Source of the DNA: an uncultured SAR86 cluster bacterium | GTDB taxonomy: Bacteria; Pseudomonadota; Gammaproteobacteria; Magnimaribacterales; D2472 | Length of the DNA stretch: 35,666 nucleotides | Direction: 5' to 3' | NCBI GenBank assembly: GCA_902558095.1 | Contig: CACECP010000010.1 | Location: forward strand, 1-35,666 | Shown here: positions 16,970-23,422 of the stretch, piece after piece | Numbering within the stretch: position 1 is the stretch's first letter | Layout: every line of letters begins with the position of its first letter | Notes under the pieces: model-generated | What the model was told of the DNA's origin: nothing | The model's input: the letters and a program-made list of their open reading frames with translations, nothing else | Databases searched by the model: none | Made by a program: the position numbers and the translations under genes

Positions 16970-19900
16970 TTATTGTATGTCATTAACTTGAGTTTTAAAG
17001 TATTTTTTATACTCATTTTTCAATGCATTGGGTAGTGATAGCACAGCGGGAGTTAATATTAAGGTCATAAATGTACTAAAACCAAGTCCCCATACTATGG
17101 AGACGGCAAGATTTGACCACCAATCCACAACTCTACTGCCTATGACTATGTCTCTTGAAATTATATCTACACTAACACCCATTGCTAATGGCAATAGGCC
17201 AAAAATTGTTGTAAGTGATGTTAAAATTATTGGTCTGAGTCTTTGCTTACAAGCGTTTATTATATGGATTGATTGATCTACTTGAGGAGCCTCTGCCCTA
17301 AGCTTATTAAAAGTATCAATTAATACAATATTGTTGTTTACAACAATTCCTGCAAGAGTAACTATAGATATTCCTGTCATAGTGGTGCTGAATGATTTAC
17401 CTGTAATAAGCAATCCTAATAAAACACCTACAAAAGAGATGGTAACAGCTGAAAGAATGATGAAAGATTGGTAAAAACTATTAAATTGAGTAATCAGCAT
17501 TAGTAGCATCATAAAAATTGCAGTTATTCCTGCAATAACTATAAACCTATTTACATCTTCCGTTTCTTCAGCCATTCCACTAAATTGATAGCTAATGCCA
17601 GGCCCAAGGTCTGTTGATTCTAGCCAGTCATTTAATTCATCTATTTTTTTAGATACTTTGGATTCATCATCTGTTCCTGCACCAATTTCTTGAAAGTACT
17701 TTCCATTTTTTCGATTGACTGTTTGTCGATTTTCTTTTGGAATAACTTTTACAAATGAGCTTACTGGAACAGTTCCTTGTCTTGTTACCACGTTTAAATC
17801 TCTAATGCCTGTAATCGTTCTATCAGAATCAGGAAATCTTGCTCTAATTTCAACCTCATCTTTTGCATCATCTGGCCTATATTCTCCAACCTTAAATCCA
17901 GATGTTAGCATTTGAACCAAAGCCCCAACATCACTGACACTAACACCTAACTGCGCAGCTTTTTGCTTATCAACCTCAACACTCCACTCAACTGAAGGAT
18001 ATGCTTTAGATGAAAAAATATTATTTAGGTCGGTCATATTATTACGCATATAATTTTCAATTTTTGTTACTGCCTCATTAACCTGCTCTTCAGTATCTCC
18101 ATAGATATCCAACTCAATAGGTGAATCAAAAGACGGTCCACCTTCATCCGCTTCAATCTCAACAGTTATTCCTGGTAAATCTTTGATAGATTCTTTCAAT
18201 AGGTCCATGATTTCAAAGCCAGATATTTTTGTTTGTGATGGCTCTAATGTTTCAATAAAACCACCTCCAACTCTATCTGAACCTGATTGCCACCATTCCG
18301 AACCCGATCGAAGATAAACATTTTTAATACCTTCAACTTCTAAAAATCTTTCTTCAACATCCTCAATTATCTCTTTGGTCTCAAGAGCAGAAAAATTACC
18401 TCTAGCCTTGATTGTTACATTGGCTTGGATTGGATCAACTATTGCAAAATATATAGTTCCCATGCCCGAAATAGAGTAACTCATTATAATAATGAGCAGG
18501 ACTGAAACAACTGCAGTTACTGTTTCGATTGGATTTCTTACGAATCTTTTAATGTACTTTCCATACCAATCAGTTAGAGTTACAAATATTGACTTATGCC
18601 CGTCTTCATTATTGAGTGCAGATTTTTTTTGTCCAAAATATGCTCCGAGAACTGGAATAACAATAAGAGAGTAGAACAAAGAAGCCGACAAAACGAAGAA
18701 AATAGTTATAGGCAGATATTTCATGAATTGACCAGTAAAACCAGGCCAGAACATCATGGGTATAAAAGCAGCAAGTGTTGTACCTGTAGAAGCTATAATT
18801 GGATAAAACATCCTCTTAGAAGCAAGTGTATAGCCCTCAACTCGAGACAAGCCTTCGGATATTTTCTTATCGGCATACTCAGTAATAACTATTGATCCAT
18901 CTATCAACATTCCCATTCCAAGGAGTAAGCCCATCATAACTAAAAAATTCACTTCCATATCTAAGGTATATAGGATTAGATAGGTCATTAAAAAACAGAA
19001 TGGAATAGATAATCCAACAAGCATAGAAACTCTAGTCCCCATGCTTGCTATTACAAGCACCATAATTAATACAACAGCAGCAATAATATTTCCGTTAAGC
19101 TCTTTCACCATAAGATTTGCATAAATTGTATCGTCATTGGAAACTACAATATTCAAGTTTTGTGGGAGTGTTTTTTCAAAATCTGAAAGAATTTCTCGTA
19201 TTGCGTTTGAGGCATCAATGGCATTTGCACTTTCTCTTAGTGAAATTTCTAAAGTAACTGCATCTTGACCATTTACTCTTGCGTATGAAGTAAAGTCTTT
19301 AAATGTTCTTTTAATACTCGCAATGTCTCCAAGTGTAACAATAGCGTCATTTGTAACTTTGACAGGTATTGCATAAACATCTTTAGCAGACTCAATAATA
19401 CTTGGAACTTCAATGTTGAAACTTCCTCTACCGGTATCTTGTTTGCCACCAGGAATAATGAGGTTATTGTTTGATACTGAGTAATAAATGTCAGACAATG
19501 TCACTCCATATGATTCCATTTTTGCCTTATCTATAACTCCTTCAAGAACTTCCTCTGGAGCACCAGTCATTCTCACTTCAAGAATTTGTTCAATGGGCTC
19601 AATGTTATCCTTTAGCTCTCTTGCATAAAAAACCTTCTGTCTTACTGAGCTTCCTCCCACAATACTTATATTCATTACAGGAAAGCTTGCTTCACTATAT
19701 TCTTGAATCTGAGGATCCTCAGCTTCAAGTGGAAGTTGATATTTAATTTCTTCAACTCCTTGCTTTACATCAACCAAAGCTTGATCAATATCGAAACCTA
19801 CTTCAAATTCAAGAAATACCCTTGCGTAGCTTAAATAACTTGTAGACCTAATGCTTTTTACACCAGTGACATTTTTTAATCTATTTTCTAGAGGTCTTGC

Positions 19901-20092
19901 AATTAATCTAGATGTATCGCTGGGTGAAGCTCCGTCAAGAAACACAGATACTGTTATAAATGGTAATTGGACGTTTGGCGATGCTGCAATTGGAATTTCT
20001 TGTCTGGCATAACTTCCAGCGATTATTACCATAAATGCAATTAATAGAGTTGTTTTTGCTTTCTTTATAGCAAAGTCAATTATTTGAATCAT
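16970..20092 (-). CDS. RND efflux permease (AcrB/HAE1-related)
   Basis: This is an inner-membrane proton-driven exporter of the resistance-nodulation-division family. It has 1040 residues, two repeated halves with an N-terminal membrane helix, large periplasmic loops (about 35-335 and 560-870) and two membrane bundles (about 336-500 and 875-1025). In the first bundle the proton-relay motif reads LLGMGMLIDGSIVITEY: Asp398 matches AcrB Asp407, but the neighbouring Asp408 is Gly. The second-half motif is GIVVNNNIVLIDTF, with Asn where AcrB has Lys940. Such changes occur in RND branches outside the AcrB core group. It overlaps the adaptor gene by 4 bp (ATGA). No TolC-like gene is adjacent. The substrate is unknown. 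Confidence 0.9.
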   Translation of the reverse strand: MIQIIDFAIKKAKTTLLIAFMVIIAGSYARQEIPIAASPNVQLPFITVSVFLDGASPSDTSRLIARPLENRLKNVTGVKSIRSTSYLSYARVFLEFEVGFDIDQALVDVKQGVEEIKYQLPLEAEDPQIQEYSEASFPVMNISIVGGSSVRQKVFYARELKDNIEPIEQILEVRMTGAPEEVLEGVIDKAKMESYGVTLSDIYYSVSNNNLIIPGGKQDTGRGSFNIEVPSIIESAKDVYAIPVKVTNDAIVTLGDIASIKRTFKDFTSYARVNGQDAVTLEISLRESANAIDASNAIREILSDFEKTLPQNLNIVVSNDDTIYANLMVKELNGNIIAAVVLIMVLVIASMGTRVSMLVGLSIPFCFLMTYLILYTLDMEVNFLVMMGLLLGMGMLIDGSIVITEYADKKISEGLSRVEGYTLASKRMFYPIIASTGTTLAAFIPMMFWPGFTGQFMKYLPITIFFVLSASLFYSLIVIPVLGAYFGQKKSALNNEDGHKSIFVTLTDWYGKYIKRFVRNPIETVTAVVSVLLIIIMSYSISGMGTIYFAIVDPIQANVTIKARGNFSALETKEIIEDVEERFLEVEGIKNVYLRSGSEWWQSGSDRVGGGFIETLEPSQTKISGFEIMDLLKESIKDLPGITVEIEADEGGPSFDSPIELDIYGDTEEQVNEAVTKIENYMRNNMTDLNNIFSSKAYPSVEWSVEVDKQKAAQLGVSVSDVGALVQMLTSGFKVGEYRPDDAKDEVEIRARFPDSDRTITGIRDLNVVTRQGTVPVSSFVKVIPKENRQTVNRKNGKYFQEIGAGTDDESKVSKKIDELNDWLESTDLGPGISYQFSGMAEETEDVNRFIVIAGITAIFMMLLMLITQFNSFYQSFIILSAVTISFVGVLLGLLITGKSFSTTMTGISIVTLAGIVVNNNIVLIDTFNKLRAEAPQVDQSIHIINACKQRLRPIILTSLTTIFGLLPLAMGVSVDIISRDIVIGSRVVDWWSNLAVSIVWGLGFSTFMTLILTPAVLSLPNALKNEYKKYFKTQVNDIQ

Positions 20093-20967
20093 ATGCGATT
20101 TGTAATAACTTCCTGACCGTCTTCAACAAAACCTTGTCCTTGAATTACTATTTCAACTTCTTCTGGTATTCCAGTAACCCATAATCCTTCTTCAGAATCC
20201 TCTAATATAATTATTTCAATAAACTTGGCGTATTTGTTTTTATTAACAATCCTTATTCCTAATTTACCTTCATCATTTAAAAGTAAAATGGAAGGAGATA
20301 TTTTATGAGCCATCACCTTATCAATTTCTATACTTATTTCTGCAGTGAGTCCATCTTTGATTTTGCCATCAGAGTTTTCTATCTGTGATTCAACGATAAA
20401 AGTTCTTGTATCAGGAGATGCGCTTTTAGAAACAAAAGTAAGCTTGCCCTTAATTTTTTGTCCTGTTACTAGTTCAACAAGCACATTCTGGCCAATACGA
20501 ACTTTATTGATATCATATTCAGGCACTCCAGCAATTAATGTAATAGGATCTAATTGAATAATTGTTGCGCATACCTGGCCTCTTTCTAAGAAATTTCCTG
20601 GTTTAACAATTTGCTCAATAAACCCAGAAAATGGAGCCTTAACCTCTGTTCTATTAAGCTCAACAATACCTAAACTACACAAAACTGTATCTTTCTCAAC
20701 ATATGCGCCCTGAATTGCTCCAATTTTGACAACCTCACCCGATGTTTTTGCTTTTACATTTATTCTTTTTTCTGATTTTGTAGATGCCTTAAGTTTTATT
20801 AAAGGTTGGAATTCTGAAGCTTCACTTAATATTGTTTGGACATTAAATAAGTCACCTGTTTCAGTTGGTTTTTGACGCTCCTCTTCTTTAAAAAATCCTG
20901 AGATCATCCATAAAAGGATTGGCACAAGAATGTATAAAGATATTCTTACGTTTTTAGTTAATTTCAT
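20089..20967 (-). CDS. RND periplasmic adaptor (membrane fusion protein) lacking the coiled-coil hairpin
   Basis: The adaptor links the downstream permease to an outer-membrane channel. It has an N-terminal membrane anchor (about residues 8-26) with no lipobox cysteine. The lipoyl half-motifs INVKAKTSGEVVKI and VKAPFSGFIEQIVKPGN are separated by only about 30 residues, so the long alpha-helical hairpin of AcrA-type adaptors is absent. A beta-barrel region (about 145-225) and a membrane-proximal domain follow. At 292 residues it is short for the family (about 360-400). A hairpin-less adaptor is known in BesA of Borrelia. The gene has its own strong promoter with a leader of only a few bases. 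Confidence 0.88.
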   Translation of the reverse strand: MKLTKNVRISLYILVPILLWMISGFFKEEERQKPTETGDLFNVQTILSEASEFQPLIKLKASTKSEKRINVKAKTSGEVVKIGAIQGAYVEKDTVLCSLGIVELNRTEVKAPFSGFIEQIVKPGNFLERGQVCATIIQLDPITLIAGVPEYDINKVRIGQNVLVELVTGQKIKGKLTFVSKSASPDTRTFIVESQIENSDGKIKDGLTAEISIEIDKVMAHKISPSILLLNDEGKLGIRIVNKNKYAKFIEIIILEDSEEGLWVTGIPEEVEIVIQGQGFVEDGQEVITNRI

Positions 20968-20977
20968 AATATATAGT

Positions 20978-21006
20978 TATTATAGATATTGACATAAATA
21001 CTGCCA
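20978..21006 (-). promoter_or_regulatory. Strong sigma-70 promoter of the MFP-RND-xseB-ispA-dxs unit
   Basis: On the minus strand, TTGGCA (21001-21006) and a perfect TATAAT (20978-20983) are separated by exactly 17 bp. This is the best consensus match seen in the window. Only 10 bases separate the -10 from the ATG at 20967, so the predicted start point leaves a leader of about 4 nt and essentially leaderless translation. Confidence 0.75.
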
Positions 21007-21022
21007 ATAGTTAATTTTTCAT

Positions 21023-21667
21023 CTAAACCTTGTGTTTATTCCTAAGTTTTTTAAATAGACTCTTGTTAAAAGGCTTTAGAATTTTTTTATTTTCATTATT
21101 TTGAATACTAAATCTTTTTCCTTTTTGAGCCTCTTTTTTAAGAGAAATAAAAGTATTTTTAAATAGTGTAAAGGTTTCCTTTGTATCCCTTTCATTTAAT
21201 ATATCCCATCCAACTTTCTTACCGGTATAAAAAACAATAGGATGGGACCAATTAAATTTTTTTCTAGGTTGATAGGATCGCCTTGCCTCCAAATACGCCT
21301 CTTCTACAGATGGAAATCCATCATTTTTATTAATATCATTACAAGCTTTAAGTAAATCGGTAAGAGTTGGTAGATAGGATTGAGAAATAATTACATTTTC
21401 AATTCCCTTAAGAATTATGTCTGGAGGTAAATTTTTTAAGCTTAGTGCCCAAAGTTTTTTACCTTCTCTTAATTTTTCATCTGTTCCAAAAACTTTATAA
21501 AACTGATAATGATATGCTAGCTCAAGTTTCAAGAATAATGAATCAACTGCTTGAACTAAATTTTCTTTAGTCGAGGTTGATTTCGTTTGCCCATGTTGTA
21601 TCATTTTTTCTTGCATTAAAGTCCTTTGAGTACTGGCCTGGCTCAATATATTTTTTATCTTTTTCAT
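21023..21667 (-). CDS. Phage lambda P-like replicative helicase loader
   Basis: This 214-residue protein resembles replication protein P of lambdoid phages, which delivers DnaB helicase to the origin. The similar pattern, judged by eye, is VDSLFLKL near residue 41 (P has a like segment at about the same position), a KKLWALSLKNLPPDII stretch, SYLPTLTDLLKACND, FPSVEEAYLEARR, then HPIVFYTGKKVGWDIL and a basic tail. There is no Walker A motif, so it is not a DnaC/DnaI ATPase. Two starts are possible: ATG 21667 (AGGT upstream, N-terminus MKKIKNILSQ resembling that of lambda P) or ATG 21616, with a better Shine-Dalgarno (AAAGGA). Either way it overlaps the DnaT-like gene, by 101 or 50 bp. No other phage genes are nearby, which suggests domestication. 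Confidence 0.72.
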   Translation of the reverse strand: MKKIKNILSQASTQRTLMQEKMIQHGQTKSTSTKENLVQAVDSLFLKLELAYHYQFYKVFGTDEKLREGKKLWALSLKNLPPDIILKGIENVIISQSYLPTLTDLLKACNDINKNDGFPSVEEAYLEARRSYQPRKKFNWSHPIVFYTGKKVGWDILNERDTKETFTLFKNTFISLKKEAQKGKRFSIQNNENKKILKPFNKSLFKKLRNKHKV

Positions 21668-22367
21668 TATTACCTATATTATTATCATTCATCATATGTC
21701 TTCTTTTGACATGATCAATAAATTTAGAGTTCCATGTTGTAAAAGCCGCGCCTTTATCTTTCCAATATAGAATAAATTCTCTAAGGTATCTTAAAGCAGA
21801 ATCTTTAGTGATTTCTGATAAGTTTAGGATATCAAATACATCATCATCAGGAAACCACTTTTCATCAATTGTATGCGGAAGGGTTTTTTTTGAGTTACTT
21901 TCTTTTGCCCATTCTCTTCTGATAAAGTCTAGAAAAGTAATATTCCAATTATTTTTCTTTTGTCCTCGCTCGACCCAATATAATTTAAATTCTTTTAACT
22001 TAAGATTAATAAAATCATCAGATATTTCAGTCATTTTAATGATTTCAAGAGTATCATTTGAAGGTTTCCAATTATTGCTAATTTTTCCAGATTCTTTTGT
22101 TTGAGGTGGATTTTTAACAACGTAATTAGTTTTATGTGAATTTTGATTTAATTCAATAAGATTAAATTTGTTCAATTTTTTTAAAGATTTTTCTATTACG
22201 CTTTCATCAATAAAGGGTAAATTATTTTTTACCGATTCTAAGATATTTTCATATGGGGGAATCATAATTAATTTATTTTTATTAAATAAATCAAGAATAA
22301 TGGCACACTCCAATCCTAATGTTTCTGCAACTTCTTTTGAGAATGATAGGTTTTCTTTTTTCCCCAA
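21567..22367 (-). CDS. DnaT-like replication protein with two DnaT DNA-binding domains
   Basis: This 266-residue protein has three visible parts. Residues about 10-75 look like a winged-helix domain (KEVAETLGLECAIILDLF...LPFIDESVIEKSLKKLNKFNLIELN). Residues 100-153 and 171-223 are two copies of the DnaT DNA-binding pattern: W-x-P, a short helix, LKEFKLYW or LREFILYW, then NNWNITFLDFI or TTWNSKFIDHV. E. coli DnaT, a primosome protein acting with DnaC, has one copy. The start is TTG (22367), 5 bp after the aroG stop, with GAGG inside the aroG end; the next Met is residue 35, which would cut the winged helix. It overlaps the lambda P-like gene, so the pair looks like a helicase-loading module. 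Function is inferred. Confidence 0.72.
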   Translation of the reverse strand: MGKKENLSFSKEVAETLGLECAIILDLFNKNKLIMIPPYENILESVKNNLPFIDESVIEKSLKKLNKFNLIELNQNSHKTNYVVKNPPQTKESGKISNNWKPSNDTLEIIKMTEISDDFINLKLKEFKLYWVERGQKKNNWNITFLDFIRREWAKESNSKKTLPHTIDEKWFPDDDVFDILNLSEITKDSALRYLREFILYWKDKGAAFTTWNSKFIDHVKRRHMMNDNNIGNNEKDKKYIEPGQYSKDFNARKNDTTWANEINLD

Positions 22368-22372
22368 TTAAA

Positions 22373-23422
22373 CTATTTACCTCTTTTTTTAATAACAGCT
22401 TCGTTAAGCATTCTTAAACACATTAAGGTATCGTCCCAACCCAAACATGCATCAGTAATGCTTTGTCCATATTTTAAGTTTTCTGTAATATTTTGATTTC
22501 CCTCATTCAAGTGACTTTCAATCATAACTCCTTTTATGCATCGGTCTCCATTGATGATCTGATCGCAAATAGATTCAACAACAGGGATTTGTTGTTTAAA
22601 TTTCTTTTGGCTATTGCCATGACTGGCATCAATCATTATTGATTCATTTACCTCAGCTTCTTTCAGCGCAGTCAGAGTGTTGTTAATTGATTCATTATCA
22701 TAATTAGGAGTCTTTCCACCTCTTAGGATAATATGAGCATCATTATTTCCAGCAGTTTTAAGCATAGCAATATCTGCTTCTTTTGTTGCACCCAGAAAGA
22801 CGTGTGAATGATTCGCTGCTTGTATTCCATCTATAGCAGCTTTTAGACTTCCATCAGTACCATTTTTGATACCAATTGGACATGATAGACCTGAAGCAAG
22901 TTCTCTATGAATTTGACTTTCAGCAGTTCTTGCTCCAATTGCGCCCCAAGATATTATATCTGTGACATATTGCGGTGAGATTGGATCTAGAAATTCAGTA
23001 CCCGCTGGCAGTCCTAATTCAGCAATCTCAATTAATAATTTTCTTGCCAATTCTACGCCTTTGGCAATGTTATATGTCTCATTTAGATCTGGGTCATTGA
23101 TCAAACCTTTCCAACCAACTGTAGTTCTAGGCTTTTCAAAATAAACCCTCATTATTATCAATAAATTCTCATTAAAATTTTTGCTCTCATTTGATAATTT
23201 ATTTGCATATTCAATTGCACTTTCTGGATCATGAATAGAGCAGGGACCAACGACAACAAATACCCGATCGTCTTTATCATGAAGTATTTGACTGACTTGA
23301 TTTCTTGTTCCATATACAAGTTTTGCTATTTCATCATTTATTGGATATTTATTAACCAGCTCATATGGAGCAGGCACTTTCCTTCTATCAATAATCCTTG
23401 TATTGTCAGTTGAATAATTCAT
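22373..23422 (-). CDS. aroG: 3-deoxy-7-phosphoheptulonate synthase, class I (AroG/F/H type)
   Basis: DAHP synthase joins phosphoenolpyruvate and erythrose 4-phosphate, the first step of the shikimate pathway. Diagnostic segments are VVVGPCSIHDPESA (about 56-69), MRVYFEKPRTTVGWKGLINDP, the GLPAGTEFLDPISPQY region, GARTAESQIHRELASG, ILRGGKTPNYD and IDASHGNSQK. At 349 residues it matches the E. coli isozymes. Which feedback specificity it has cannot be read with confidence. It has a plausible own promoter and is followed after 5 bp by the DnaT-like gene, so shikimate entry and the replication module would share a transcript. Confidence 0.95.
   Translation of the reverse strand: MNYSTDNTRIIDRRKVPAPYELVNKYPINDEIAKLVYGTRNQVSQILHDKDDRVFVVVGPCSIHDPESAIEYANKLSNESKNFNENLLIIMRVYFEKPRTTVGWKGLINDPDLNETYNIAKGVELARKLLIEIAELGLPAGTEFLDPISPQYVTDIISWGAIGARTAESQIHRELASGLSCPIGIKNGTDGSLKAAIDGIQAANHSHVFLGATKEADIAMLKTAGNNDAHIILRGGKTPNYDNESINNTLTALKEAEVNESIMIDASHGNSQKKFKQQIPVVESICDQIINGDRCIKGVMIESHLNEGNQNITENLKYGQSITDACLGWDDTLMCLRMLNEAVIKKRGK

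Follow-up and report, generated by a model that had tools for sequence, protein, structure and literature searches.

A putative DopC/DopE-type helicase loader in a gammaproteobacterial order, with a P-like tail on DnaT in two P-less families

Two overlapping genes in a 35,666-nucleotide stretch of SAR86 cluster DNA (hereafter the window, meaning the whole stretch analysed) encode a DnaT-type protein and a protein resembling the helicase loader P of phage lambda. It is highly probable that this pair loads the replicative helicase onto the chromosome throughout its order, as a domesticated lambda O/P-like loader of the DopC/DopE type that replaces the missing DciA and DnaC, and the pair most likely serves to start chromosome replication. 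The observations behind this assignment are the domains and folds of the two proteins, their conservation, their gene context, the lack of a DciA match and a tail motif. Two sister families of the order have no match to P, and their DnaT ends in the C-terminal motif of P. We give roughly even weight to the proposal that in each of them P was independently cut down to its C-terminal helix and fused in frame onto DnaT, forming a one-protein loader for which docking on DnaB beside single-stranded DNA (ssDNA), without the P body, would be enough for loading. We label the four families of the order f1 to f4, and use g, G and L for genera, genomes and loci.

The dnaT and P frames are both open on the minus strand and overlap. 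The DnaT/DopC-like gene (21567..22367, minus strand; 266 aa, TTG start) begins 5 bp behind aroG (22373..23422, minus strand), which encodes a DAHP synthase by Pfam. The lambda-P/DopE-like helicase-loader gene (21023..21604, minus strand) is matched by PF06992, by PHROG 109 and by a P profile built from the order. Its longest mechanical ORF starts at 21667. A start at 21604 is favoured because the match of the order-built profile, which spans 21026-21604, ends there; this would probably give a protein of ~193 aa and a 38-bp overlap with dnaT, though a broader P profile that includes phage rows reaches 21628. Downstream, 55 bp past P, lies a gene for an HlyD-type membrane-fusion protein (20089..20967, minus strand), followed by an RND transporter gene (ACR_tran by Pfam; 16970..20092, minus strand). 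Across 16970-23422 of the window, the loader genes, aroG and the HlyD-RND pair share one strand and are tightly spaced, as they are in all four families. The preliminary description had placed the pair in a non-phage context behind aroG, and this holds: no phage family occurs among aroG, the HlyD gene and ten further scanned neighbours, the ten being Dxs, a prenyl synthase, RND, ScpA, ScpB, a pseudouridine synthase, an SDR, a HAD, a methyltransferase and one protein without a match.

The DnaT-type protein belongs to the Pfam DnaT-domain family PF17948 (120.6 bits, cut-off 25), with two copies of the domain at 21888..22082 (67 bits) and 21696..21872 (61.8 bits), both on the minus strand. Its AlphaFold model has a pLDDT of 82.6, and the best fold match is the ssDNA-binding domain of DnaT (DnaT84-153; 4ou6/6aeq), a weak match at E 0.17 with probability 0.98. 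The NCBIfam equivalog model for E. coli DnaT does not match the protein at E 0.1, nor does the Pfam model Phage_rep_O (PF04492). By Pfam, neither protein of the pair has an AAA+ or other ATPase domain, IstB-type included, or a match to DciA (PF05258); the pair is therefore no member of the DnaC/DnaI type, in line with the earlier reading of a loader without a Walker motif. Viral contigs gave no close relative of the window DnaT protein, and phage records gave no match. Its sole plasmid match, at 32% identity, is NZ_CP048881.1:1976-2380, on a Spartinivicinus ruber plasmid and annotated as DnaT-like.

The P-type protein matches PF06992 (Phage_lambda_P) at 27.5 bits, barely above the curated cut-off of 26, and PHROG 109, 'P-like helicase loader', at 6e-14. 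Among PDB sequences, a P profile found lambda P (8v9t) at 2e-8 and G39P at 4e-4. An AlphaFold model built with 45 relatives (pLDDT 87.3) has helices as far as residue 160 and, after a loose segment (161-179), a terminal helix at 180-190. In Foldseek, ranks 1-5 were all lambda P (best E 3e-3, probability 1.00, none below 0.001), and structural re-comparison again placed lambda P (9oa1) on top, with an rmsd of 5.8 over 157 aligned residues and a Z of 10.9, which falls below the ~13 under which scores can be common among helical bundles. The N-terminal helical domain (21347..21562, minus strand; model residues 15-86) resembles SPP1 G39P (1no1; Z 9.5, rmsd 1.7 over 67 residues), and the C-terminal helical domain (21101..21319, minus strand; model residues 96-168) resembles residues 119-198 of lambda P (9oa2; Z 7.1, rmsd 2.4 over 71 residues). 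The terminal helix and end (residues 180-193; 21026..21067, minus strand) carry the motif that DnaT bears in the two sister families without P. With a profile score above the cut-off and lambda P as the best fold match, the protein is a member of PF06992. Two PF17948 copies, PF06992, PHROG 109 and the lambda P fold confirm the overlapping DnaT-type and lambda-P-like genes of the preliminary description.

Compared with seven members of its genus, the P gene has a dN of 0.19-0.25 and a dS of 1.3-2.6, as under purifying selection; this and the recurrence of the pair across the order argue that the P frame is not a chance frame. The protein has no close relative in viral contigs, and 13 phage records hold a distant relative at 24-30% identity. 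A tree of 36 P rows, in which the bootstrap had not settled and long branches are present, grouped the chromosomal P proteins (those of this order, of Cellvibrionales, of G202 and G244, and the fused protein of G359 described below) to the exclusion of the seven rows from phages or prophages, with support of 93/95. For the 28 chromosomal rows without G359 the support was 72/85, and with or without it the chromosomal P proteins come out as distinct from those of phages.

We sampled 199 genomes of the order, many of them incomplete drafts; the window's own genome is 80% complete. DnaT is present in 170 of the 199, including 39 of the 40 high-quality genomes, and in 22 of 22 genera, while P, sought with its own profile, is present in 123, all in f1 and f3. 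By family, the counts for DnaT are 86/103 in f1, 32/35 in f2, 36/40 in f3 and 16/21 in f4, and those for P are 87/103, 0/35, 36/40 and 0/21, respectively. Two related P profiles did match in f1/f3, and a search of 10 f2/f4 genomes for a relocated P, with a broad profile at E 10 and no positive-control genome in the set, found none. Since f2 and f4 give no P match, P itself cannot be needed throughout the order. The gene order aroG-dnaT-(P)-HlyD is common to all four families, and the pair is conserved among relatives with this synteny rather than occurring sporadically with phage genes. All 8 matched genomes of genus g13 (family f1) have a shortened P: the frames measure 145-151 aa, and the match ends at model position 92-99. 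One of these, at L107:4848-5288 (from G081), still has both its N-terminal domain and the tail at its end. Three f4 genomes (G044, G053 and G059), of which one consists of a single contig of 1.0 Mb, have neither a DnaT nor an AroG match, and another, G041, has both; the gap in the three is either a locus deletion or an assembly gap.

The preliminary description had proposed a domesticated phage-type loader, and the survey supports this. DciA, sought with one Pfam model (PF05258), is matched in 0/199 genomes of the order, the window's own included, against 221 of the 274 genomes in a sample of the class. DnaC is about 245 aa long. IstB/DnaC matches occur in 193 of the 199 genomes; among the matches listed, frames are 286-518 aa, and six are found near base 500 of chromosomes assembled as one contig, where DnaA would be expected. 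No DnaC-sized frame is among the matches listed, frame sizes from which we judge DnaC to be probably absent from the order; the window's own genome gives one weak IstB-family match (3.4e-5).

Outside the order, the class sample contains DnaT in 8 genomes and P in 15. Only two of these genomes, G202 and G244, have a chromosomal pair of a three-DnaT protein and P, and neither has a DciA match. The single-DnaT carriers G465, G298 and G275, which are prophage-like by eye, do have DciA, and in G465 and G298 a P gene and repressor-like genes lie close to the single DnaT (by eye). Since a single DnaT stands beside P in such prophage-like loci, the DnaT-P combination need not have arisen in a bacterium. 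Other P carriers with DciA are G239, G250, G282, G287, G353, G361 and G379; G301 and G359 carry P and are not among the DciA matches. In G359 (L129:5371-6528), one fused chromosomal protein combines N-terminal parts that by eye resemble the N-terminal domain of the DnaT protein with a C-terminal P domain; it ends in an L..LR run and is flanked by oxoprolinase-like and sigma-70-like genes (by eye). G301 (L128:4334-6086) has adjacent O-like (by eye, with no Pfam match) and P-like genes in chromosomal-looking surroundings, possibly another domesticated pair.

Among named records we took the best 80 of 359 related loci, of which 63 are Cellvibrionales by record title. A DnaT frame is present in 80/80 and a P frame in 78/80, mostly overlapping DnaT. 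The exceptions are L186, which ends at a contig edge, and L179 (Halioglobus sp. NAT121), where a Cellvibrionales-type DnaT has no adjacent P and no tail. L135 and L151, titled Verrucomicrobiaceae and Flavobacteriaceae, contain the Cellvibrionales-type pair and are probably mis-titled bins. The suggestion that a DnaT-P combination would be a distinct version of DopC/DopE is thereby rejected: the published pair is almost certainly the same system, since a multi-DnaT protein with P occurs in nearly all of these mostly Cellvibrionales loci. DopC and DopE are said to have been described by Brezellec et al. in 2017 as an adjacent pair derived from lambda O and lambda P, respectively, and reportedly belong to genomes without DciA and DnaC/I, at non-phage chromosomal loci. 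The window likewise has a P-like gene paired in a non-phage chromosomal locus, with a partner that has no Pfam O match, and its pair is related in sequence to that of Cellvibrionales. We infer that the Cellvibrionales pair is DopC/DopE, since that order has the same DnaT-P pair and is reported in PMC5109545 to lack dciA and dnaC/I. The window pair is then almost surely of the published type, with a predicted role as helicase matchmaker. PMC13326638, which cites Brezellec et al. 2017, states that bacteria without AAA+ loaders generally rely on DciA or DopE.

The tail of P recurs at the end of DnaT in the families without P. The pattern [LIVFMA]..[LMIH][RK] occurs within the last 14 residues of P in 74 of 78 named loci and in 41 of 42 distinct f1/f3 proteins; in the window P it falls in the terminal helix, and the C-terminus of lambda P has a similar run. 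At the end of DnaT, the pattern is found in 1/79 and 0/41 sequences of P-bearing lineages, against 26/26 complete sequences in f2, from 27 of the 32 DnaT-positive f2 genomes (the f2 sequence L034, truncated where its contig stops, was left out of the count), and 8/8 complete sequences examined in f4, of 16. The distance from the DnaT stop to the downstream HlyD gene is 28-56 bp in f2 (25 loci) and -1 to 35 bp in f4 (8 loci); from the P stop it is 1-100 bp in f1/f3 (37 loci). The f2/f4 arrangement would result if an in-frame deletion had fused dnaT to the final codons of P. A tail derived from an f3-like P in particular is not borne out for f2, whose tails score a mean of 25.7 against P tails of f1, 20.6 against f3 and 11.3 against the Cellvibrionales type, the f1 tails being at least as similar. 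These P-less families with the C-terminal motif of P on DnaT are what is new here, provisionally so, since the paper that defines DopC/DopE lies outside the literature searched; the open-licence literature, that paper excepted, yielded no report of DopC/DopE from this order and none of a P tail being transferred.

A tree of AroG and HlyD (42 rows) joined f1 with f4 (98/93) and f2 with f3 (96/84); f1 and f4 drew a warning for long branches. On account of this warning, a second tree added RND and left out the outgroup (19 rows, 1750 columns), and it separated f1 and f4 from f2 and f3 with 100/100 support. A single loss of P in f2 and f4 is rejected by this split and by an AU test in which the two families were held together (p-AU 0.001). 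Since the trees split f2 from f4, the loss of P and the gain of its tail by DnaT would so represent at least two events, unless P was regained.

How might such a loader work? The DnaT-type protein would bind the ssDNA that becomes exposed at oriC or restart forks and recruit the P-type protein, whose C-terminal helical domain would dock on DnaB and whose terminal helix, via the flexible linker, would dock on the linker-helix/docking-helix (LH-DH) module of DnaB. The DnaB ring would then open and ssDNA enter without ATP hydrolysis by the loader, and the pair is expected to be essential. In f1 and f3, DnaT would supply ssDNA binding, and P would both dock on DnaB and open the ring. In f2 and f4, DnaT itself would bear the docking helix, and the ring would have to open spontaneously or by some other drive. 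The reading of the P tail as a lambda-P-like docking helix draws on the E. coli DnaB-lambda P complex, in which, according to PMC6391071, a helical P domain lies between the C-terminal domains of neighbouring DnaB subunits and a lasso-like stretch of P sets a helix on the linker-helix site, with the direction of the chain assigned tentatively. DciA, DnaC and lambda P all target the LH-DH module, as stated in PMC9912922.

Two other accounts of the pair itself have to be weighed. DnaT and P might act in replication restart only, reloading DnaB with PriA at collapsed forks while at oriC DnaB is loaded by DnaA alone or loads itself. E. coli DnaT is indeed a restart protein, and the lack of a P match in f2/f4, together with the three f4 genomes also without DnaT, suggests that the pair may be conditionally dispensable. 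However, the chromosomal pair tracks the lack of DciA, as a replacement for an oriC loader would; it is retained in ~1 Mb genomes and is common in Cellvibrionales, and we regard a restart-only role as improbable. A prophage or satellite remnant, kept by chance and without host function, would fit the 13 phage records with a distant P relative and the DnaT domains adjoining P genes in prophage-like loci. Such a remnant is hard to reconcile with synteny across four families, a dN far below dS, ten further neighbours without a phage family, the lack of close relatives in viral contigs and the absence of any phage record for the DnaT protein, and it is the least credible account by far.

A further alternative concerns the tail, which in f2/f4 might be a chance convergence on a lysine-rich helix, with an undetected P or another loader serving these families. 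The tail is short and lysine-rich, and on a position matrix built from P tails, where DnaT ends have a median of 17.6 in f2 and 15.7 in f4, shuffled ends reach these medians in 0.13% and 0.29% of 6800 trials, respectively. The lowest f2 score (8.2) is reached by 4 of 833 other ORFs, and f2 tails resemble the P tails of f1 no less than those of f3, their sister family. Yet the same 833 ORFs have a mean of -8.3, and only 0 and 1 of them reach the f2 and f4 medians. Also against convergence are the presence of the motif at every complete f2/f4 end examined and its near absence from DnaT in P-bearing relatives, a DnaT stop about as close to HlyD as the P stop of the window, the shortened P of g13 that keeps the same tail, and the P profiles without a match in f2/f4. 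On balance convergence appears unlikely, though less so than a restart-only role for the pair.

Transfer of the P tail to DnaT, if it took place, bears on the minimal requirements of a helicase loader, an open question given that DnaC, DciA and lambda P are unrelated and target the same DnaB module. The order would then offer a natural deletion series at syntenic loci, from full P to shortened P to the tail on DnaT alone, ending in the three genomes with neither a DnaT nor an AroG match. This series indicates an element of ~12 residues as the last part retained. If the proposal is true, docking on DnaB next to ssDNA, without a ring-prying P body, suffices to load a replicative helicase.

The pair shares features with several known systems. 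PF05258 matches neither window protein nor any genome of the order, whereas the role predicted for the pair is that of DciA, and lambda P has the same LH-DH target (PMC9912922). With the SPP1 helicase loader/inhibitor G39P, the likeness lies in the N-terminal domain of P, to which the comparison is limited. In E. coli, the dnaT gene adjoins a loader gene, dnaC. The window likewise sets a DnaT-type protein, with the DnaT domain, beside a loader gene, but its loader is P-type and has no AAA+ domain. Lambda O/P is matched in the P fold, the similar terminal run and the adjacency of the genes; in contrast, the window DnaT lacks the Phage_rep_O domain, for which the O protein of Pseudomonas phage MPK9 gives a PF04492 match. 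The system differs from the putative DopC/DopE of the named loci in having two DnaT domains, against three in the two named relatives scanned, in lying behind aroG, which occurs in 0/80 named loci (flanks of ~3 kb), and in the two families of the order without a P match. It agrees with them in its multi-DnaT and P build, found in 78/80 named loci, and in P proteins that fall into one group. The putative DopC/DopE loader type is thereby extended to a further order of small-genome gammaproteobacteria.
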